A DNA stretch of 64,000 nucleotides from Sphingobacteriales bacterium. Its GTDB lineage: Bacteria; Bacteroidota; Bacteroidia; Chitinophagales; Chitinophagaceae. Where the stretch lies: positions 1 through 64,000 of the forward strand of contig JAIXSZ010000072.1 in assembly GCA_027484425.1 (NCBI GenBank), in the 5' to 3' direction. Shown in pieces: positions 42,631 through 64,000 of the stretch (its first letter is position 1; each line of letters starts with the position of its first letter). The notes under the pieces were generated by a model. It did not search any database. It was not told the origin of the DNA and worked only from the letters and a program-made list of their open reading frames with translations. The position numbers and the translations under genes were made by a program.

Positions 42631-44598
42631 ATGAATAAACTAAAACTTCTTTTAGGCGCGTTTCTGTTGTCTTCAGGTATTGCCACGGCAGCACCGGGTG
42701 ATACTACTTGGGTACAAGCTAATATATCGCAGCTGTCTTGGTATGGCAACTACGATTCTACCATTAACTTCCCAACTACAGGTACCTACCGCAATATTTA
42801 TATGGTAGTGACTATCGGTAAGTACGTATGCCCCGGGTCACCTACTTATTGTGGTGACTGGGATTACACGGTTCAAAACTATTTAATGACCCCTGGTGGC
42901 GACACGCTAGAGCTTGGCAGGTTAATTACTCCTTATGCCAACTCAGGTGCACCTCGTACTCCCAACAGCTGGACACACCGATATGTATTTGATGTTACAG
43001 ACTATGCTAGCAAATTGCAAGGTAGCGGCACGGTGCGCTTGCACTATTCTGGCTATTCAGGTGGATTTACAGGCAACATCAAATTCGCTTTTGTTGAGGG
43101 CACGCCTGACAGAAATGTCGTGGGTCTTGAACGCCTATGGCGTGGTAGCTACAGCTATGGCGGTGCTACTGACATAGATACCTATTTTCCTGAGGTAACA
43201 GCAACTGCACCTTCAGGCACTCAAAATTCTGAACTCAAGTTTCTAATAACAGGTCATGGCAGCGATGATGCAGGTTGCTGCGAGTTCTTATCTAAAAACT
43301 ATCAGGTTGTCCTAAATAGTACCTCCATTGCTACAAAAGCTATTTGGAGAGATAATTGTGGTTCCAATGAATTATATCCTCAGTCTGGCACTTGGTTGTT
43401 CGACCGTGCTAACTGGTGCCCTGGCGATTTGATAGAACCTAATGTGCACAAACTAACAGGAGTAACAGCAGGAACTCCATTTAACGTAAAATTAGATTTC
43501 GATGCTTACGCCAGTTCCGGCGGTGGTTTAGGCAGCTACACTACCGAAACCCACCTTGTACACTACGGCCCCATCAATAAAACTAAAGATGCATCAATTG
43601 AGGATATTATCTCTCCCACCAACAATGAAAACCATTTCAGACAAAACCCAATTTGTGGTTCACCTCGTATAACAGTCAAGAACAGAGGTGCCGCTTTCAT
43701 TAATCTTATATCTTTTGAGTACGGTATTAAGGATTCTGTTATGCAGACTTACACATGGTCGGGTACGCTTAACCCGTTGGAATCTACAGAAATTGCATTA
43801 CCTGACCTTACTAACCTACAATCGATTGCTGGTAGCACTGGCACTAAAACATTTGTTGTAAAAATAACATCTGTAAATGGAAGCGGTGATGCTGATAGTA
43901 CAAACGATAAAATGATGTCTGATTTTGCTCCATCACCTAAATGGGATGGTCAGTTCCGTGTCATGTTCAGACCCAACAATCAAACTGGAGCAGGTGGTAC
44001 CAGCCAAACGAACTGGAAAATTTATGACCAAAATAATGTAGTGGTTCGTGAGCGAACTGGTGCTGCAATTAACACTTTGTATACAGACACTGTTACATTA
44101 CCTACAGGATGTTACAGATTTGAGATTACAGACGGTGGTTGCGACGGTTTACATTGGTGGTTGTATGACGCAAATCCCAGCGCAGGTGTAAATGGAGGTA
44201 GCTTGTTCGTAAAAAAATATGGTTCTAATGCCAATATCACTATGAATGGCTACGTATATTCTGGCACTTATGCCCATGACTTTGGCTGCAAATTCACACA
44301 GTATTTTTACACCAATACTCCTATTTCTGGCGTCAACAATGTGGATGCTAATGCATTATCTATGGAAGCTTATCCTAATCCTGCAACCGACAAAGTGTAT
44401 ATAGACATAGCTGGAATTACAAATGTTACTGGTACGATTAATGTAATTGATGCAGTAGGAAGAGTAGTAAAAACCATTTCCTGTAAAAATGCACATGTTG
44501 AAATAGAAACAGCTGATTTACAAAGTGGTATTTATACTTTGCTATTTGTAAATCAAAATGGCAACAAACTTCAGTCGAGACTACTAATTAATAAGTAA
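42631..44598 (+). CDS. PNGase F-like glycoamidase, T9SS-exported
   Basis: 655 aa with a signal peptide (about 1-21). Residues about 25-310 follow the two-jelly-roll PNGase F layout: CGDWDYTVQNY (74-84), ELGRLITPY (94-102), DVTDYA, then GHGSDDAGCCEFLSKNYQV (about 208-226), AIWRDNCGSNELYPQSGTW and FDRANWCPGD. The Asp in GDWDY and the Glu in CCEF appear by eye to match catalytic-region residues of Elizabethkingia PNGase F, which removes Asn-linked glycans. A CARDB-like domain (about 325-450) and another beta-domain (about 450-565) follow. The C-terminal 75 residues are a type A sorting domain of the type IX system (AYPNPATDKVYID ... LQSGIYTLLFV). Predicted to act on the surface or outside the cell. 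Confidence 0.87.
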   Translation: MNKLKLLLGAFLLSSGIATAAPGDTTWVQANISQLSWYGNYDSTINFPTTGTYRNIYMVVTIGKYVCPGSPTYCGDWDYTVQNYLMTPGGDTLELGRLITPYANSGAPRTPNSWTHRYVFDVTDYASKLQGSGTVRLHYSGYSGGFTGNIKFAFVEGTPDRNVVGLERLWRGSYSYGGATDIDTYFPEVTATAPSGTQNSELKFLITGHGSDDAGCCEFLSKNYQVVLNSTSIATKAIWRDNCGSNELYPQSGTWLFDRANWCPGDLIEPNVHKLTGVTAGTPFNVKLDFDAYASSGGGLGSYTTETHLVHYGPINKTKDASIEDIISPTNNENHFRQNPICGSPRITVKNRGAAFINLISFEYGIKDSVMQTYTWSGTLNPLESTEIALPDLTNLQSIAGSTGTKTFVVKITSVNGSGDADSTNDKMMSDFAPSPKWDGQFRVMFRPNNQTGAGGTSQTNWKIYDQNNVVVRERTGAAINTLYTDTVTLPTGCYRFEITDGGCDGLHWWLYDANPSAGVNGGSLFVKKYGSNANITMNGYVYSGTYAHDFGCKFTQYFYTNTPISGVNNVDANALSMEAYPNPATDKVYIDIAGITNVTGTINVIDAVGRVVKTISCKNAHVEIETADLQSGIYTLLFVNQNGNKLQSRLLINK

Positions 44599-54819: not shown

Positions 54820-57800
54820 ATGAAGAGAATAAACAAATCAGGATTAGAGATGATTAAATTAAAAAAAACAAATAACACTATCTTACTTCGTAAGCTTTTT
54901 ATTATCTCACTCATCATTATAACTAATAAATCCTTTGGGCAATCTATTACTTGGTATCAAGATAATGATAATGATGGCTGGGGAAATCCATCAGTGACTC
55001 AGTCTTCGGTCACTAAACCAACAGGTTATGTACAGAACAACTTTGACTGTAATGACAATAACACCAACAGTTCAGTATGGTCCAATGTGGGTAGTGCTGG
55101 TATTTCAGCATTTGGTGCCAACAATACAGCAATTGTAGTAGATGGCAATGGCATACCCTATGTTGGTTATAATAATAACGGAAACGGATCAGTAGTATAT
55201 AAATTCAATGGGTCTGCTTGGACAATGGTAGGCACTGAAAACTTCTCAGGACAGCCTATATATAGCTCTATGGCGCTTGACAATGATAACAATCCATATT
55301 TTGCAGCTCAAAATAATAACAGCGGACAAGCCCCTACAATCATGAAGTTTGCATCTGGGTCATGGTCTACATTGGGAGGCAGTAACCCTACTTCTGATGG
55401 CTCTGCTTTTAACAGCCTGGCAATTGATGGATCCAATAATGTTTATTACGCATACAAAGAACTATACAGCACACATGCCAACAAAGCAACCGTAATGAAA
55501 TATAACGGTAGTAGCTGGGCAGCAGTTGGTTCAAGAGGTTTTTCCTCCGGAAGTGTAAATTTCACGTCTCTAGCACTTACATCATCAGGTACTCCCTACT
55601 TAGCTTTTCAAGATGGAAACAGTAGTAATAAAGCTACTGTAATGATGTTTAATGGTTCCAGTTGGGTAAATGTCGGTTCAACTGGTATTTCTAATGGTAC
55701 AGCCTCCTACATTTCTCTTACTATTGATAAAAGCGGGACACCTTACGTTGCTTATAATGATGGAAGTTACAGCAACAAATTAGTAGTTAAAAAATACAAC
55801 GGCTCTACTTGGGTAAATGTCGGTGCGTCTACTGGATTGTCAACTGGCACCGCAAACTACATAACAATCAAAACAGACGGAAATAACACTCCATATGTAG
55901 CTTACTCGGACGCAAACAACAGTGATAGAGGCGTGGTTATATCATACAATGGCAGCAGTTGGGTGCAGGTAGTAAGTGCTAATATCAGTTCTGCTTCTGC
56001 CACCCACCTGTCCATGACAATCGACCCATACGGTATACCATATGTGGCTTTCAGAGATGGTAATAGCAGTAACAGAGTTACGGTAATGAAGATAGAAATG
56101 GTAAAAAACTTACCTTCCACTCCTATCGCTTCTTCGTCACCAGCTTTTAGCTGTTCTGCTGGAACAGCTACTTTAACAGTTACAAGCGGCACATTAAATG
56201 ATGCCACTAATTGGAAATGGTACAGTGGTAGTTGTGGAGGCACGCTAGTAGGTACGGGCAGCTCTATTGTAACTACTGTTACTGCCACCACTACTTATTA
56301 TGTAAGAGGCGAAAACAATTGCCCCTCTTCTAATGGAGCTTGTGGTTTCGCTTCTGTAACAATACGCAACTCACCACTTTGGTATCAAGATAATGACGGC
56401 GATGGATGGGGAAATCCTTCAGTTATCCAGGCATCTTGCACAAAACCAGTAGGATATGTAGCAAACAACCTAGATTGTAACGATGCCTCATCAAATAGCA
56501 CTCAATGGTATACTATAGGTGGGGGTCCAGTATCTACCAATCAAGCATTATGGACAACTGTAGCTATAGATGCTAATAATATCCCTTACGTCGGTTACTA
56601 CGACGACTACAACAAAGGTACCGTTCGCAGTTTCACAAGTAGTTGGAGTGCAGCCGGTACGGCACTATTCACACCAAGCAGAACCACACATAATGATCTC
56701 GCATTTGACCCATCAGGAGTTTTGCACATGGTCTTTCAGGATGACTTTGGTGGTGTAAGTGTAATGAAATACAGCGGAGGAAGCTGGAGTCTTGTCGGTC
56801 CTAGAAACTTCTCTTTAGGACAAGCTACTTACACTTCTATAGCTTTCGATGCTGCTGGCACTCCTTACGTTGCTTTTGTTGATGGCTATTTCACTCACAC
56901 CGACAAGGTATCTGTAATGAAGTACAATGGTGCGTCATGGGTAGTTGTAGGTAGTTATGGTTTTTCACCAGGCACCGCTAACTATACGTCACTTGCAATT
57001 GACGGTGGAGGCAACCCTTATGTTGCATTCTCGGACGGAAATAGTAGCGATAGACTTACTGTGATGAAATATAACGGTAGCGCTTGGAATATTGTTGGTT
57101 CAGCCGGATTCTCTGCACAAACTGCGTCCTATTGCAAAATGAAATTAGACGCATCCGGAGTCCCTTATGTGGTGTTTAGCGACGGTAATGTCAGCAATAA
57201 GTCTACTGTGATGAAATATAATGGTAGTAGCTGGGCAAATGTAGGAAGTGCAGGTTTTTCTGCAGGCACTGCATCATTTACATCAATAGCTATCACAAGC
57301 ACCGGCCATCCAATAGTTGTATATAAAGATGGTGGAAACAGCGACAAAGCTACTGTTATGCGATTTAACGGTACCAGTTGGGTCGTATATGGCAGTGCTG
57401 GTTTCTCCAGCGGATCAGTTAATTACACATCAATCGCTTTAGATGCTTTTGACCTCCCTGTAATCGCTTATCAGGACGCCAGCAATAGCAATAGACCCAC
57501 AGTAATGAAAGTAGGACCTCTAGCAGTTGCCCCCAGCACACCTACTGCTGGTGCTTCAAGTTCTACAATTTCTTGTGGAAACTCAACTACCCTATCTGCA
57601 TCTGGCACACTCAACGGAGCTGGTGCTTGGTATTGGTACCGAGGAAGCTGTGGAGGCACTTATGTAGGTATGGGTAATTCAATTGCTGTTGCACCTTCTT
57701 CAACAACAACTTATTTTGTGAGAGGCGAAGGCGGTTGTCTTACTACCCCTGGCAACTGTGGCTCTACAACAATAACTGTCACAGCAGCTACTCCATCATT

Positions 57801-60800
57801 ACCTGCAATTACCGGTACGCTTCCTGAATGTGTAGGGTCTGTAAGAACGCTCGCCAATGCTACACCTGGTGGAACTTGGAGCAGTAGCAACACTTCAATA
57901 GCTACTGCTGGTGCTTCCTCAGGCATAATCACTGGCGTGAGTGTGGGCAATGCAACTATCACTTATTCTTGGGGTGGCACTTGTGGATCTACGTTTACCA
58001 CAGCTACAATGACAGTTAACCCAAATCCAGCCTACGGACCTATAACGGGTACTACAACCACATCTGTAGGAAACACTATTACACTAAGCCATTCAACCCC
58101 AGGTGGCACATGGTCAAGTGCTAATAGCTATCTAGCTTCTGTAAACTCTTCTGGAACTGTAACCGGAATTGCCCCGGGTACAGTAAGAATTAGTTACACT
58201 ATTAATGACGCATGTGGCGCATTTAGTGCTACTACTTTAGTATCCGTTAATCCTGCATCATCCATTCCACCTATTACTGGTACGTTTGTTATATGCTCAG
58301 GAGGTTCCTCTGCTTTGTCAAATACTACAAGTGGTGGCGTGTGGACCAGCAGCAACACTAGCATAGCTACAGTTGGCACCAATGGTATTGTTACTGGAGT
58401 CGCTCAAGGCACCGCTACTATTTCTTACACTGTGGGTGTTGAAATGGTCAATGCCGTAGTCACAATTAATCCACTACCTAATGCTGGTACCATAATTGGC
58501 ACTGCCACCGTTTGTCCTTTAGCTACTACCAATCTTAGCAATGCTCAAGCTGGTGGTGTGTGGTCCAGTAGCAACAATGCTATAGCTACTGTTGGCACTG
58601 GTGGTGGTGTAACAGGAGTTGCTTCTGGGACTGCCACTATTTCTTATTCTGTTTCCAACAGTTGTGGTACTGCTCATGCTACACAGGTGGTTACTGTTAA
58701 TCCACTACCTAATGCTGGCACTATAACAGGTACAGCTACTGTCTGTATTACTAGCACTACAACTCTATCCAATGCTCAGGCTGGTGGTGTATGGTCCAGC
58801 AGCAACAGTGCTATAGCAAATGTAGGCACCAGTGGAGTAGTTACTGGTGTTTCGCAGGGCATTGCAACTATCTCTTATTCTGTCACCAATAGCTGCGGCA
58901 CCGCTCATGCAACTCAAGTTGTAACTGTAAACATATTCCCAAGTGCTGGCACTATTACCGGTACTGCTACTATTTGCACTGCCACTACTACTACGCTCAA
59001 TAATGCTCAGTCAGGTGGTATGTGGGCTAGCAGCAACAATGCAGTAGCAACAGTTGGCACAGGCGGTGTAGTGACTGGCGTTGCAGTGGGAACTGCTACG
59101 ATTTCATATTCAATTACCAATAGTTGTGGAACTGATTACGCTACTCAGGTTGTTACTGTAAATGCTGTTCCAAATGCAGTAACTGCTAATGCTACGCCAA
59201 ACCCAATATGTAGCGGTTCCTCTTTAGCACTGACCAGTTCTGCCAATAGCAATATCGTGGGAGGAGGTACGGTTTGCGGTACAGTCAGTGAAAATGGGAC
59301 ATTAACACTGACAGCACCAGCTGGTACCGTATTTACGAGTGTCACTTTTGCCAGCTACGGTACACCTACAGGCTCTTGTGGCAGCTTTGCTACAAGCTCT
59401 TGCCATGCTGCTACAAGTTTGTCTGTTGTTCAAAGTTACTTAATTGGTAATTCAACAGCTAGTATACCAGCCACAAATCTAGTTTTTGGTGATCCTTGCT
59501 CTGGAACATCGAAATTTCTTTATGTCGAGGCAAATTATTCCTACTCAGCAACCTATAATTGGTCCGGTCCAAATGGTTTTAGTTCAACCACACAAAACCC
59601 AACTGCCTTTGCTGTCTCACCTTCAAGTGCTGGTGTTTATACAGTAACAGCGTCTAACGCTTGCGGTTCTGCTATTGCTACAAGAGCAGTTACTGTCAAT
59701 CCACTCCCTAGTGTCGGTAGTATCACAGGAACTTCTGTAGTTTGTACTTCTGCTACTACTTCTCTTACAAACACCCAACCAGGTGGTATATGGAGTAGCA
59801 GCAACTCAGCTATTGCCACCATAGGCACGAATGGTATAGTAACTGGTGTTTCCTATGGAAACGCTACTATTTCTTACGCCGTAACAAACAGTTGTGGTAC
59901 TAATTTCGCAACTCAGGTTGTTACAGTCAACGCCGTTCCTAGTGCAGTTACAGCAACTGCCACGCCAAACCCAATATGTAGCAGTTCAAACTTAACTTTG
60001 ACCAGTTCAGCAATCAATAAGATTGTCAGCGGTACGGTTTGTGGTACAGCTAACGAAGGTGGTTCCATAACGTTGACAGCACCGTTAGGCGCTGTTTTTA
60101 CGGGCATTTCTTTTGCTAGCTACGGCACACCTACAGGTTCTTGTAGCAGCTTTGCAACTGGTACTTGCCACTCAACTACAAGCGTGTCTGTTGTGGAAAG
60201 TTATTTAATTGGCAACTCAACCGCAACAATCCCTGCTTCAAATACAGTTTTCGGAGATCCTTGCACTGGAACACTAAAGAGGCTTTATGTTCAGGCAATT
60301 TATTCCTACCCAGCTGACTATCAATGGTCTGGCCCGAATGGTTTCAGCTCAACAGTACAAAACCCATCCGCATTTGCAGTCACAAGTGCTAACGCTGGCA
60401 TTTACACAGTCACCGCAACCAACAGCTGTGGTACTGCTTCCGCTACTCAGGTTGTTACAGTTAATCCTCTACCTAATGCTGGTACCATAACTGGCACTGC
60501 CACCGTTTGTCCTTTAGCTACTACTACACTTAGCAATGCTCAAGCAGGTGGTGTTTGGACCAGCAGCAACGCTGCTATAGCTACCGTAGGTACCAATGGT
60601 GTTGTTACAGGCGTTGCTCAGGGCAATGTTACTATCTCTTATGCTGTAACCAACAGTTGTGGTACTGATTATGCTACTAGGGTTGTTACAGTAAATCCAC
60701 TACCCAATGCTGGCACCATAACTGGCACTGCCACCGTTTGTCCAACTGCTGCTACTACGCTTACTAATGCTCAAGCAGGTGGTGTATGGACTAGCAGCAA

Positions 60801-63800
60801 CACTGCTATTGCTACGGTAGGCACTAATGGTATTGTAACAGGCGTTGCTCAAGGAAATGCTACGATTTCTTATGCAGTCACTAACAGTTGTGGCACTGCC
60901 TATGCTGTTCAAGTAGTTACAGTTAATCCTCTACCTAATGCTGGTACCATAACTGGCACTGCCACAGTTTGTCCTTCGGCCACGACTACGCTTAGCAACG
61001 CTCAAGCAGCTGGTATGTGGACTAGCAGCAACGCTGCTGTTGCTACCGTAGGTACCAATGGTGTTGTTACAGGCGTTGCTCAAGGCAATGTTACTATCTC
61101 TTATGCTGTAACCAACAGTTGTGGTACTGCTTATGCTACTCAGGTAGTCACCGTCAATCCTCTGCCTAATACAGGCATTATTACTGGAACTGCTACTGTA
61201 TGTACTTCTAGCAATACCTCTCTTACTAATGCTCAGGCCGGTGGTGTATGGACTAGTAGCAACACCTCCATTGCTTCTGTAGGTACCAATGGCGTTGTAA
61301 CAGGTGTCGCTCAGGGCAATGCTACTATCTCTTATGCAGTTACTAACAGTTGCGGTACCCTTTATGCTACTCAGGTGGTTACTGTATATGCATTGCCTAA
61401 TGCAGGTACAATCGCTGGCGCTAATTCTACTTGTGCTGGCACCTCTCTCTCACTTTCTAATACCCAGCCAAGTGGCATATGGACCAGCAGCAACATTGCT
61501 GTTGCTACTATCGATGCTGGAGGTGTCATTTCATCTTTATTGTCTGGCACAACTACCATTTCTTACACAATTACTAATTCCGATGGCTGTTCTTCAGTAG
61601 CTACAAAAATTGTTACAGTTAATGCCCAACCTATCATCTCCTCCCCTACCGGCTCATTTACTGTTTGTAAGTCTGGCTCTTTAACGCTCTCTACTTCTGT
61701 TGCAGGCGGTGCTTGGATCAGTAGCAATTCGGCCGCTGCTACAATAGGCGCAGGAAATGGTGTGGTAAATGGTATTGATGCTGGCACCAGCAGCATTACA
61801 TACAATATAGTCACTTCTGGTTGTAGAGCTACCGTTGTTCTTACGGTTAATACTTCTCCTACTTTTATCAGCAACCCCGCTCCCCTTTGCCCAGGCGAAA
61901 CCACTACAATGACTGCACTCCCCGCTGGTGGCACCTGGACTTCCAACAACCCTGCAGTTATGGCTGTTAATGCCTCAACTGGACAAATAACTGCTGTTAT
62001 TAACAACTACTCTGGCAACTCTATTACTTTCATCAACTATATTACAGCAGATGGTTGCAGTGGTGCAAGAATGGTTACTGTAAAGCGCGTACCAGCCCCT
62101 ATTTATGGAGGCGTACGCAACATGTGCACTGCAGAAAATACAACACTTTTGTGTGGAACTCCAGGTAATATTTGGACTAGTACCACTCCTGCCGTGGCTA
62201 CAATCAATTCTTCCGGTGTAGTTTCAAGTATTGCTGCTGGGACAACTATTATCAGTTACACAAACACCGACGGCTGCGCTAGCACAACTACAGTCACTGT
62301 CAACAGCACTCTCCCTGCAAATACTGGTAGCAATACAGTGTGCACAGGACAAACAACAACACTTAGCAATGCTGTCCCTGGTGGCACTTGGAGTATCTCT
62401 GGTAACGCCGCCTCAATCAATTCCTTAACGGGTCTTGTAACTGGTATTAATGCAGGTACTGTCAATATATCATACAGAATAGGTGTAAGCTGCTTTAGTG
62501 TAACTCAAGTAACTGTAAATAGTAACGCACCTGCCATTAGCGGAACACTCTCGGCTTGCGAGGGTACTACAACTGCTCTCAATTTCCCGTCTACTGCTGG
62601 TGCATGGAGTAGCAGCAATACTGCTATTGCGTCTATCAACCCTACGTCAGGCCTTGTTACGGGCATCTCATCAGGTACTACTACCATTTCTTATATCATG
62701 ACTGCCAGTTGTTTCAAAACCGCTGTAGTTACTGTCACTGCTGTACCTGCAGCTATAACTGGTACTGCCGTTATGTGTGAGGGCTCAAGTACTACCCTGA
62801 ACAACTCAGGTGGAACTTGGAGTAGCAGCAACACTGCTATTGCAGTTGTAAACTCCTTAGGACAGGTAGCTGGTATAAGTGCAGGCAATGCCAATATCAC
62901 TTACAGAATCGCCTCTACTAGTTGTTACACAGTTCGCGAAGTCACCGTAAATCCACTGCCTGTTATTACACCAGTCACAATGTGCGAAGGAGATACGGTT
63001 ACTATGGTAGCCTCACCTACAGGGGGTACTTGGACCAGCAACAACTCCAGTGTTGCAGTACTCAATCCTACTATCGGAAATATTACAGGAGTATACCTCA
63101 GCCACACTTCAATAGGAGTGGCAGCTATCAACTATACTAGCCCTATTGGTTGCTCTAGAATATCTGTTGTAACGCTAAATCCTACTCCAGCTAATATTGT
63201 AAACTATACCGCATCTATTTGCGCAGGCAACAATGTTATACTTACTTCCAGTACCTCTGGGGCTATATGGAGCAGTAGCAATTCTTCGGTAGCCACTGTC
63301 AATTCTTCTGGTTTAATGTCGGCTTTAAGCCAAGGAACTACTACTATTACCTACGGCTTCGCTAGTGGTTGCTATGCAATAAAGACACTCACTGTAAACC
63401 CCTTACCAACTGTAAATGCTATTACTGGTACCTTAAGCATTTGTAGATTCAACAGCTCCAGTCTCAGCAACACTACAATAGGTGGTACATGGAGCAGCAG
63501 CAATACTTCTGTTGCCTCCATCACAAATACTGGTTTAGTTACCGGAAACAATGCAGGAAATGCTACCATCTCCTACTCTATCACTAATGAATTCGGCTGT
63601 ACTAACAGAGTTTTTGCCACAATGTCTGTTAATCCTTATCCAGTAGTATCAGCAATAAGTGGGGCAACTGGCATTTGTATAGGAAACTCATCAAGCCTCT
63701 CCAACTCCAACCCAGATGGTATATGGACAAGCAGTAATGCTGCTGTTGCTGCTATCGGCACAAATGGTATCGTTACAGGTGTTGCCACTGGTACAGCTTC

Positions 63801-64000
63801 TATTTCTTATACTGTAACTAATGCTTTTGGTTGCTCTACCCAGGTATCTACTATGGTTACAGTAAGCCCACCCCCTACAGTTGCACCCATCACAGGCAGT
63901 CTAAACGTGTGTAAATTTGACAATACAATGCTGTCAAACACTACACCCTCTGGTGTTTGGGCAAGCAGTAATACATCAGTAGCCTCTGTCAATCCTGGTG
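54820..64000 (+). CDS. Giant secreted repeat protein with MopE motifs, beta-propellers, Big_2 array and nested SUEL lectins; runs off right edge
   Basis: At least 3,060 codons in one frame from the ATG at 54820, without a stop to the window end. A second ATG 30 bases on is also possible; both precede the hydrophobic segment and the cleavage-like SFGQ (signal peptide to about 54942). Order: MopE-like metal-binding motif (WYQDNDNDGWGNP, 54952-55056), propeller 1 (55075-56096, 49-residue blades of the form YVAFxDGNSSNKxTVMKYNGSSW), an Ig-like domain, a second MopE motif (56380-56484), propeller 2 (56506-57514), a second Ig-like domain, then from about 57790 Big_2-like modules of about 77 aa (GGTWSSSN... 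ATISY... VTVNP). Two modules carry SUEL lectin domains (59257-59544 and 60025-60309). Adhesion or glycan binding is inferred. The T9SS signal would lie beyond the window. Confidence 0.88.
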   Translation, partial: MKRINKSGLEMIKLKKTNNTILLRKLFIISLIIITNKSFGQSITWYQDNDNDGWGNPSVTQSSVTKPTGYVQNNFDCNDNNTNSSVWSNVGSAGISAFGANNTAIVVDGNGIPYVGYNNNGNGSVVYKFNGSAWTMVGTENFSGQPIYSSMALDNDNNPYFAAQNNNSGQAPTIMKFASGSWSTLGGSNPTSDGSAFNSLAIDGSNNVYYAYKELYSTHANKATVMKYNGSSWAAVGSRGFSSGSVNFTSLALTSSGTPYLAFQDGNSSNKATVMMFNGSSWVNVGSTGISNGTASYISLTIDKSGTPYVAYNDGSYSNKLVVKKYNGSTWVNVGASTGLSTGTANYITIKTDGNNTPYVAYSDANNSDRGVVISYNGSSWVQVVSANISSASATHLSMTIDPYGIPYVAFRDGNSSNRVTVMKIEMVKNLPSTPIASSSPAFSCSAGTATLTVTSGTLNDATNWKWYSGSCGGTLVGTGSSIVTTVTATTTYYVRGENNCPSSNGACGFASVTIRNSPLWYQDNDGDGWGNPSVIQASCTKPVGYVANNLDCNDASSNSTQWYTIGGGPVSTNQALWTTVAIDANNIPYVGYYDDYNKGTVRSFTSSWSAAGTALFTPSRTTHNDLAFDPSGVLHMVFQDDFGGVSVMKYSGGSWSLVGPRNFSLGQATYTSIAFDAAGTPYVAFVDGYFTHTDKVSVMKYNGASWVVVGSYGFSPGTANYTSLAIDGGGNPYVAFSDGNSSDRLTVMKYNGSAWNIVGSAGFSAQTASYCKMKLDASGVPYVVFSDGNVSNKSTVMKYNGSSWANVGSAGFSAGTASFTSIAITSTGHPIVVYKDGGNSDKATVMRFNGTSWVVYGSAGFSSGSVNYTSIALDAFDLPVIAYQDASNSNRPTVMKVGPLAVAPSTPTAGASSSTISCGNSTTLSASGTLNGAGAWYWYRGSCGGTYVGMGNSIAVAPSSTTTYFVRGEGGCLTTPGNCGSTTITVTAATPSLPAITGTLPECVGSVRTLANATPGGTWSSSNTSIATAGASSGIITGVSVGNATITYSWGGTCGSTFTTATMTVNPNPAYGPITGTTTTSVGNTITLSHSTPGGTWSSANSYLASVNSSGTVTGIAPGTVRISYTINDACGAFSATTLVSVNPASSIPPITGTFVICSGGSSALSNTTSGGVWTSSNTSIATVGTNGIVTGVAQGTATISYTVGVEMVNAVVTINPLPNAGTIIGTATVCPLATTNLSNAQAGGVWSSSNNAIATVGTGGGVTGVASGTATISYSVSNSCGTAHATQVVTVNPLPNAGTITGTATVCITSTTTLSNAQAGGVWSSSNSAIANVGTSGVVTGVSQGIATISYSVTNSCGTAHATQVVTVNIFPSAGTITGTATICTATTTTLNNAQSGGMWASSNNAVATVGTGGVVTGVAVGTATISYSITNSCGTDYATQVVTVNAVPNAVTANATPNPICSGSSLALTSSANSNIVGGGTVCGTVSENGTLTLTAPAGTVFTSVTFASYGTPTGSCGSFATSSCHAATSLSVVQSYLIGNSTASIPATNLVFGDPCSGTSKFLYVEANYSYSATYNWSGPNGFSSTTQNPTAFAVSPSSAGVYTVTASNACGSAIATRAVTVNPLPSVGSITGTSVVCTSATTSLTNTQPGGIWSSSNSAIATIGTNGIVTGVSYGNATISYAVTNSCGTNFATQVVTVNAVPSAVTATATPNPICSSSNLTLTSSAINKIVSGTVCGTANEGGSITLTAPLGAVFTGISFASYGTPTGSCSSFATGTCHSTTSVSVVESYLIGNSTATIPASNTVFGDPCTGTLKRLYVQAIYSYPADYQWSGPNGFSSTVQNPSAFAVTSANAGIYTVTATNSCGTASATQVVTVNPLPNAGTITGTATVCPLATTTLSNAQAGGVWTSSNAAIATVGTNGVVTGVAQGNVTISYAVTNSCGTDYATRVVTVNPLPNAGTITGTATVCPTAATTLTNAQAGGVWTSSNTAIATVGTNGIVTGVAQGNATISYAVTNSCGTAYAVQVVTVNPLPNAGTITGTATVCPSATTTLSNAQAAGMWTSSNAAVATVGTNGVVTGVAQGNVTISYAVTNSCGTAYATQVVTVNPLPNTGIITGTATVCTSSNTSLTNAQAGGVWTSSNTSIASVGTNGVVTGVAQGNATISYAVTNSCGTLYATQVVTVYALPNAGTIAGANSTCAGTSLSLSNTQPSGIWTSSNIAVATIDAGGVISSLLSGTTTISYTITNSDGCSSVATKIVTVNAQPIISSPTGSFTVCKSGSLTLSTSVAGGAWISSNSAAATIGAGNGVVNGIDAGTSSITYNIVTSGCRATVVLTVNTSPTFISNPAPLCPGETTTMTALPAGGTWTSNNPAVMAVNASTGQITAVINNYSGNSITFINYITADGCSGARMVTVKRVPAPIYGGVRNMCTAENTTLLCGTPGNIWTSTTPAVATINSSGVVSSIAAGTTIISYTNTDGCASTTTVTVNSTLPANTGSNTVCTGQTTTLSNAVPGGTWSISGNAASINSLTGLVTGINAGTVNISYRIGVSCFSVTQVTVNSNAPAISGTLSACEGTTTALNFPSTAGAWSSSNTAIASINPTSGLVTGISSGTTTISYIMTASCFKTAVVTVTAVPAAITGTAVMCEGSSTTLNNSGGTWSSSNTAIAVVNSLGQVAGISAGNANITYRIASTSCYTVREVTVNPLPVITPVTMCEGDTVTMVASPTGGTWTSNNSSVAVLNPTIGNITGVYLSHTSIGVAAINYTSPIGCSRISVVTLNPTPANIVNYTASICAGNNVILTSSTSGAIWSSSNSSVATVNSSGLMSALSQGTTTITYGFASGCYAIKTLTVNPLPTVNAITGTLSICRFNSSSLSNTTIGGTWSSSNTSVASITNTGLVTGNNAGNATISYSITNEFGCTNRVFATMSVNPYPVVSAISGATGICIGNSSSLSNSNPDGIWTSSNAAVAAIGTNGIVTGVATGTASISYTVTNAFGCSTQVSTMVTVSPPPTVAPITGSLNVCKFDNTMLSNTTPSGVWASSNTSVASVNPG
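55075..56096 (+). repeat. First propeller-like repeat set (about seven 49-52 aa blades)
   Basis: Seven units open with YVGY, YFAAQ, YYAYK, YLAFQ, YVAYN, YVAYS and YVAFR and share xDGNSSNK, TVMKYNGSSW and TSLAID-like segments, period about 147-150 bases. The first half-strand of the ring (WSNVGSAGIS) precedes blade one and blade seven lacks that part, consistent with closure between the ends. Confidence 0.7.
56506..57514 (+). repeat. Second propeller-like repeat set (about seven blades)
   Basis: Seven units (YVGYYDD, LHMVFQD, YVAFVDG, YVAFSDG, YVVFSDG, IVVYKDG, VIAYQDA) of about 49 aa with TVMKYNGSSW. Same layout as the first set, including the preceding WYTIGGG half-strand. The MopE-propeller-Ig block is evidently duplicated. 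Confidence 0.7.
57790..64000 (+). repeat. Tandem Big_2-like repeat array, about 231-bp period
   Basis: About two dozen modules to the window end, each with GTxTVC, GGxWSSSNxxIATV, VTGVxxGxATISYxV and CGTxxATQVVTVNPLP. Clean adjacent copies begin near 60474, 60700, 60933 and 61163. The neighbouring units near 58.4-61.3 kb are nearly identical in DNA; units beyond 61.4 kb are more diverged. Confidence 0.85.
59165..60470 (+). repeat. Duplicated Ig-plus-SUEL-lectin module (765-bp offset)
   Basis: Two copies of an Ig-like module interrupted by a SUEL/Gal_Lectin domain. The lectin cores are 59257-59544 and 60025-60309; GGTACGGTTTG begins at 59266 and 60031, giving a 765-base (255-codon) offset. 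Each lectin shows TVCG, SFASYGTPTGSC or TFASYGTPTGSC, VFGDPC and GT-K-x-LYV, and is flanked by TPNPIC on one side and WSGPNGFSS on the other. Confidence 0.8.

Follow-up and report, generated by a model that had tools for sequence, protein, structure and literature searches.

The window, as we call here the whole stretch of 64,000 nucleotides analyzed (contig JAIXSZ010000072.1 of a Sphingobacteriales bacterium), ends inside a giant gene (Table 1). Its frame 54820-63999 is open at the window end and the stop is found on the contig at 66384, giving a product of 3854 residues. Judged by eye, the protein starts with a signal-like stretch and has two N-terminal blocks with repeated 'YVAFSDGNSS..VMKYNGSSW' motifs. 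A Pfam search of its in-window part found 18 stretches of Big_2 (230.3 bits), i.e., a long Ig-like array, and no RTX families among the matches in these 3060 residues. The C-terminus is a T9SS type A sorting domain (the Por_Secre_tail C-terminal domain of type A T9SS substrates, TIGR04183) with 41.7 bits against a cut-off of 23. The SprA translocon is encoded in the same genome (1959 bits, cut-off 200). The profile search for GldJ gave in this genome 276 bits, under the cut-off of 458.2, so that a role in gliding is unsupported.

Two lectin domains are located at residues 1483-1576 and 1737-1831 of the 3854, about 255 residues apart. The Big_2 match found between the two units covers residues 225-278 of the translation of 59050-60579 and falls slightly under the family cut-off. 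On one side the neighbor of the giant gene is an arginase-family gene and on the other a gene that we take to be hflX. Also in the window, positions 42631-44598 code for a protein of 655 residues whose C-terminal domain is of the peptide-N-glycosidase F type (77 bits) and which also has a T9SS sorting domain (51.4 bits); these domain matches make it a candidate secreted deglycosylase near the lectin protein.

Table 1. Features of the giant gene, in positions of the window
Feature	Position	Strand	Basis
Giant gene of a putative T9SS adhesin	54820..64000 in window, to 66384 on contig	+	ORF read, TIGR04183
Host PKD/Ig-like domain 1, first half (linker, strands A and B)	59149..59265	+	joined-flank match, model
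SUEL lectin domain 1	59266..59547	+	PF02140; own lectin profile 149 bits; model
Host PKD/Ig-like domain 1, second half (strands C to G)	59548..59709	+	joined-flank match, model
Ig-like (Big_2) domain between both split units	59710..59916	+	Big_2 20.7 bits, cut-off 22.8
Host PKD/Ig-like domain 2, first half	59917..60027	+	joined-flank match
SUEL lectin domain 2	60028..60312	+	PF02140; own lectin profile 152 bits
Host PKD/Ig-like domain 2, second half	60313..60474	+	joined-flank match

Identity of the lectin domains and sugar contacts

The SUEL lectin motifs quoted in the earlier note lie in frame in 54820-63999 and are present twice. The translation of 59050-60579 matched PF02140 in two stretches with 94.3 bits (E 6.1e-27, cut-off 31.4), as the note had anticipated, and in the search of the own genome each copy was singly over the cut-off, with 50.5 and 50.4 bits. 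Among 14 control genomes, five gave a match at E <= 10 and none was over the cut-off. By sequence profile, the closest solved relatives were the sea-urchin lectin 5h4s, the chain 8gl6_D of Flavobacterium (E 1.2e-30), a domain from a rice beta-galactosidase, and CSL3. According to PMC10994853, the trapped substrate in 8gl6 is RemZ, a RemA homologue, although chain D is labelled RemA. The predicted structure of copy 1 has the SUEL/RBL fold, its residues ~40-133 aligning with 5iaz (Z 14.8), 5h4s (14.0), 2zx0 (13.1) and 2jx9 (12.2).

Six residues contact the sugar in CSL3: Glu, Tyr, Asn, Asp, Gly and Lys (PMC3269628), four of which are reported as common to latrophilin-1 (PMC2430599). Both window copies have all six. 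We consider it unlikely that the nested domain is folded and still no sugar lectin, acting as a protein binder (as has been proposed for receptor-attached relatives, e.g., latrophilins and EVA-1) or as a spacer of the fibre. Receptor-attached members often lose the sugar contacts and have been argued to be protein binders, and a single latrophilin domain binds rhamnose weakly, with a Kd of 1.8 mM (both as described in PMC2430599). Against this, Glu and Lys, at which substitutions abolished or strongly reduced the binding of latrophilin-1 (as given in the same source), are conserved in 85/85 aligned related lectins, as are Tyr and Asp; Gly was found in 84, Asn in 83, and the complete set of six in 82.

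The disulfides of animal SUEL lectins are C1-C3, C2-C8, C4-C7 and C5-C6 (PMC3269628). The window lectins have three of the eight canonical cysteines (C3, C4 and C7; C8 judged by eye) and an extra, relocated one at VCG, and not the four-disulfide pattern of the family. We have taken this as non-decisive because, although the pattern is typical of the animal members, exceptions are published (described in PMC3269628). The earlier note had proposed the loss of one disulfide: the CxGKxxC pair is indeed gone, but the absent bridges are two (C2-C8 and C5-C6) and one more is apparently rerouted. Over the 85 lectin rows, C4 and C7 were present in all, C5 and C6 were both present in 9 and both missing in 76, and C2 appeared in one. 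The extra cysteine, five residues before the key Glu, was found together with C3 in 66 rows, neither was present in 18 and C3 was alone in one, a co-occurrence that is inflated by kinship of the rows. Read from the alignment, these numbers suggest that the C1-C3 bridge is rerouted through the extra cysteine.

The lectins interrupt an Ig-like domain

We have compared the flanks of the lectins, once joined, with single domains. The earlier note had placed the lectin between two parts of one PKD/Ig-like domain, and this held: the joined flanks match a single domain, of which there are uninterrupted versions in the genome. Specifically, the joined flanks of copy 1 matched PKD (PF00801) over positions 2-80 of 80 with 29.9 bits; apart, the right half gave 21.8 bits to PF00801 and the left half matched no family. 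For copy 2 the gain in Pfam score was only 1.8 bits (23.8 vs 22.0). The copy 1 flanks joined in silico without the lectin (90 residues) matched the own genome seven times, in contigs C69 and C14, at 64-68% identity; six of these matches extend over 89-90 residues and the seventh over 83. In the congener G009 the best four matches were 69-70% identical over 89-90 residues. These uninterrupted host domains read 'VVTVNAVPSAVSATATPTTLCSGANLTLTSAATSSTGAVTYAWSGPNGF...' without a break, and the position of the lectin is that of their short SSTGAV loop.

The uninterrupted host domain is held in the own genome by two paralogous Ig-array frames, L178 (G000:C69) and L179 (G000:C14). The C69 frame ends in a sorting domain that looks very similar by eye and is therefore a paralogue with an uninterrupted array. 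As both frames run off the contig end inside repeats, they may be one gene split by the assembly.

A bridging test, in which joined flanks were compared by BLAST with lectin-free frames, was dropped because mismatched joins bridged as well (370/405, real joins 76/81). We then used the joint gain, computed for 79 of 85 rows (40-residue flanks) with 395 mismatched joins as control. The window copies gained 11.1 and 5.8 bits, the 95% level of the control being 3.03. Over that level were 30 of the 31 members of the 'SDNCG' class (see below) and six of the 12 in the B-C loop group, both window copies included. The signal was weak in classes B (1/5) and C (2/6), the MopE-like hosts (0/4), the short proteins (0/4) and the unassigned (2/4). 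The joint gain alone is no proof of nesting, since the interdomain group also gave 4/13 over the control level (P 0.0006). Ten joined representatives of the host classes, an interdomain control among them, were besides searched with Pfam. Matches spanning the junction were obtained, all below the cut-off, for two of class C (PKD_5, 17.7 and 19.0 bits) and three of the 'SDNCG' class (Big_9 or Big_3_2, 14.3-14.7 bits); two representatives of class B and two of class E gave no meaningful junction-spanning match and the interdomain control gave none. In classes B, C and E the nesting is therefore a reading of motifs, and it has less support there than in the window or the 'SDNCG' class.

The AlphaFold2 model of window copy 1, made from an alignment of 35 unaltered rows with the uninterrupted domains left out, reached a mean pLDDT of 83.4 and a pTM of 0.72 (72.6-83.4 over the five models). 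By blocks of ten residues, pLDDT was 94-98 in the lectin (41-130) and 75-82 in the host part 131-187; the left half of the host (1-40) is modelled with low to middling confidence, 42-74. The host is predicted as a seven-stranded sandwich with the lectin between strands B and C. The prediction agrees with the insertion proposed earlier: a separate lectin lies between strands 26-32 and 135-139 of one sandwich, with no continuation of the Ig sheet through it. Single PKD chains span both host halves, e.g., 4tn9_A (82 of 86 residues, Z 9.9), and 1l0q_A aligns with both over 81 residues (Z 10.1, rmsd 1.6). As the right half has only ~55 residues, the left one must participate in these alignments.

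It is most improbable in our judgement that the lectins are ordinary beads, each with a complete Ig domain on either side, as apparently in RemA-like proteins. By flank motif 13/83 lectins of related loci do look interdomain, and in repetitive arrays mismatched joins bridge too, as seen above; but the joined flanks make up a single domain that the genome also has in uninterrupted form, and the model puts both halves in one sandwich. The sequence and model tests agree, and by them each window lectin sits within a single PKD/Ig-like domain, after its strand B and before its strand C. The modelled topology suggests in addition that the lectins would be presented laterally.

Related lectins and their hosts

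PF02140 was found over the cut-off in 5 of 34 genomes of the same genus besides the own one and in 5 of 394 of a phylum sample. A pattern-limited scan of species genomes yielded 171 relatives, and from them 79 loci were retained; 76 of these loci contained 83 lectins, and in L026, L069 and L095 the frames read contained none. Hosts were sorted by flank motifs, with 8/83 assigned by hand, and by this sorting 52 of the 83 lectins lie inside Ig-like domains, at several loops. The largest class by flank motif (31/83) was an Ig-like domain reading 'SDNCG...VTLxVTDxxGN'. The same criterion gave 10 lectins in B-C loop hosts, 5 and 6 at two positions of PKD_5-like domains, the interdomain 13 before an ICSGT domain, and 4 in repeats for which we presume a MopE-like nature. 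Flank sorting placed 8 in short proteins and left 6 with no class assigned. In L034, L042 and L094 the lectin is found between halves of 'DNDCDG...YYADADGDGFGNP' repeats, which we take to resemble MopE-type metal-binding repeats.

The 'SDNCG' class was also modelled (22 of 31 rows, Flavobacterium limicola first), with a mean pLDDT of 95.1 and a pTM of 0.78, and the lectin appeared after the third host strand and before the fourth. Both host halves were covered in alignments with single Rib and PKD domains at Z 8.7 to 7.6, which is near the level of chance arrangements.

A tree of the lectins was built from 85 rows and 95 columns, and 5 of its 82 inner branches were starred. The host classes cluster on it, with 18 changes against a shuffled mean of 50.2. 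The AU test did not reject single-clade constraints on three groups: p-AU was 0.706 for the pair of window copies, 0.734 for class A and 0.302 for class C. The tree constrained to a window-copy clade scored even better than the unconstrained one. With single-clade constraints unrejected and few branches starred, we discarded independent insertions as a conclusion from the tree; the argument for repeated placement comes from the different host positions. We give about even weight to the reading that Bacteroidota surface fibres use the SUEL lectin as a plug-in module, repeatedly placed in different loops of different Ig-like stalk domains. The loops proposed, as part of this same evenly balanced reading, are the PKD-like B-C loop, a later PKD_5-like loop and a middle 'SDNCG' loop; in addition the lectin would stand between domains or by itself.

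Relatives of the window lectin are also encoded in 51 contigs of the IMG/VR viral collection (L097-L147). Many of these are near the protein N-terminus or beside fibronectin-like or Ser/Thr/Pro-rich stretches, and not inside an Ig repeat.

The same locus in congeners

In the congener G013 both flanking genes are conserved (97% and 98% identical) and enclose a frame of 4234 residues. This locus, L194 (G013:C10:11800-31700), is syntenic with window 54820-66384, and the last 419 residues of the proteins are 75% identical. For 200-residue blocks further upstream the best matches anywhere in the G013 frame were of ~24-60%, and one block had none. The giant adhesin of G013, the closest congener examined, gave no significant match to the lectin profile. 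Thus the anchor end is kept, and the outer part with its lectins varies from one close relative to another, a sequence pattern suggesting that the outer fibre may be exchanged fast between them. The G013 protein was considered as an allele with an empty site and rejected, being too different upstream of the C-terminal end. In nine other congeners no frame of more than 1007 residues was found beside the arginase gene, within up to 20 kb (in one case 7.5 kb only).

Proposed working of the protein

The giant protein is quite probably a fibrillar adhesin exported by the T9SS, with two SUEL lectins each placed on the B-C loop of a split PKD/Ig-like stalk module. The stalk would continue through the split module, leaving the lectin hanging off its side. 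Export would go first by Sec and then, with the type A C-terminal domain as its signal, by the T9SS through SprA; at the C-terminus the protein would be either anchored to the cell surface or released. As is general for the T9SS, the C-terminus would be at the cell and the N-terminus distal. The two side-facing lectins may bind rhamnose- or galactose-bearing glycans with avidity, as RemA in cell aggregation. Cells that overexpress RemA are reported to autoaggregate by way of galactose-containing EPS (PMC8481357), so that EPS, neighboring cells or other glycans are likely binding partners here too.

Comparison with known systems

Both halves of the arrangement have precedents: RemA for a SUEL lectin in a T9SS adhesin, and the RTX split domains, as described in PMC12077191, for the nesting. 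What is new is that a SUEL lectin and an Ig split domain are combined in a T9SS fibre, apparently at more than one host loop. The literature search, which had most subscription journals outside its reach and so does not show absence from print, found no title or abstract that describes a SUEL lectin nested inside an Ig-like domain; a term search found no mention of SUEL or PF02140 in the main text of PMC9210967.

RemA and RemZ of Flavobacterium johnsoniae share with the window protein the SUEL-type lectin and the type A sorting domain, and their export by the T9SS and character of lectin adhesin (as reported in PMC12618676 and PMC8481357) are those proposed for it. RemA is much shorter, 1436 residues vs 3854, and the comparison covers the lectin domains only; in the aligned part, its sequence before the lectin resembles the interdomain group and not a split Ig domain. 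The animal lectins SUL-I (5h4s), CSL3 (2zx0) and the latrophilin domains have the same fold (Z 12.2-14.0 over 83-91 residues) and the six contacts. They differ in having eight cysteines in four bridges, whereas the window lectins have four cysteines, and in being in tandem or attached to receptors instead of nested in an Ig-like domain. For the host domain, a match was found in a module of GhpA, the grappling-hook protein of Aureispira (9flw, 9flp): 9flw_A aligned with the model of 59149-59709 at Z 9.7 (rmsd 1.8, 77 aligned residues, 34% identity).

A parallel in architecture is with the RTX adhesins AhLap of Aeromonas hydrophila, MpAFP and FrhA, in which a ligand-binding domain also emerges from an Ig-like split domain. 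In AhLap, as described in PMC12077191, a carbohydrate-binding module buds from an Ig-like domain, the rest of whose fold follows after it, and is projected off the fibre axis. Chains of MpAFP and FrhA matched our second ('SDNCG') model at low Z (5.9 and 5.5). The RTX adhesins differ in their type I secretion, their RTX repeats and the other families of their ligand-binding domains, and we claim no homology. The window protein has the split domain, with a presumably ligand-binding insert, and at its C-terminus the T9SS type A domain in place of RTX repeats and a type I signal. It would work like an RTX split-domain adhesin and is not a member of that group.

If the plug-in reading is true, T9SS fibres carry exchangeable side-facing lectins, parallel to the RTX split domains, and this would help to explain the frequent mid-chain position of adhesive domains in Bacteroidota fibres. 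A route to the ligand-binding domains of giant Bacteroidota proteins is also suggested, i.e., to search Ig repeats for the segments inserted in them. PMC12077191 argues the split-domain rule for RTX adhesins, to which it had so far been confined; it is extended here to the T9SS and to a family of lectins that animals also have.
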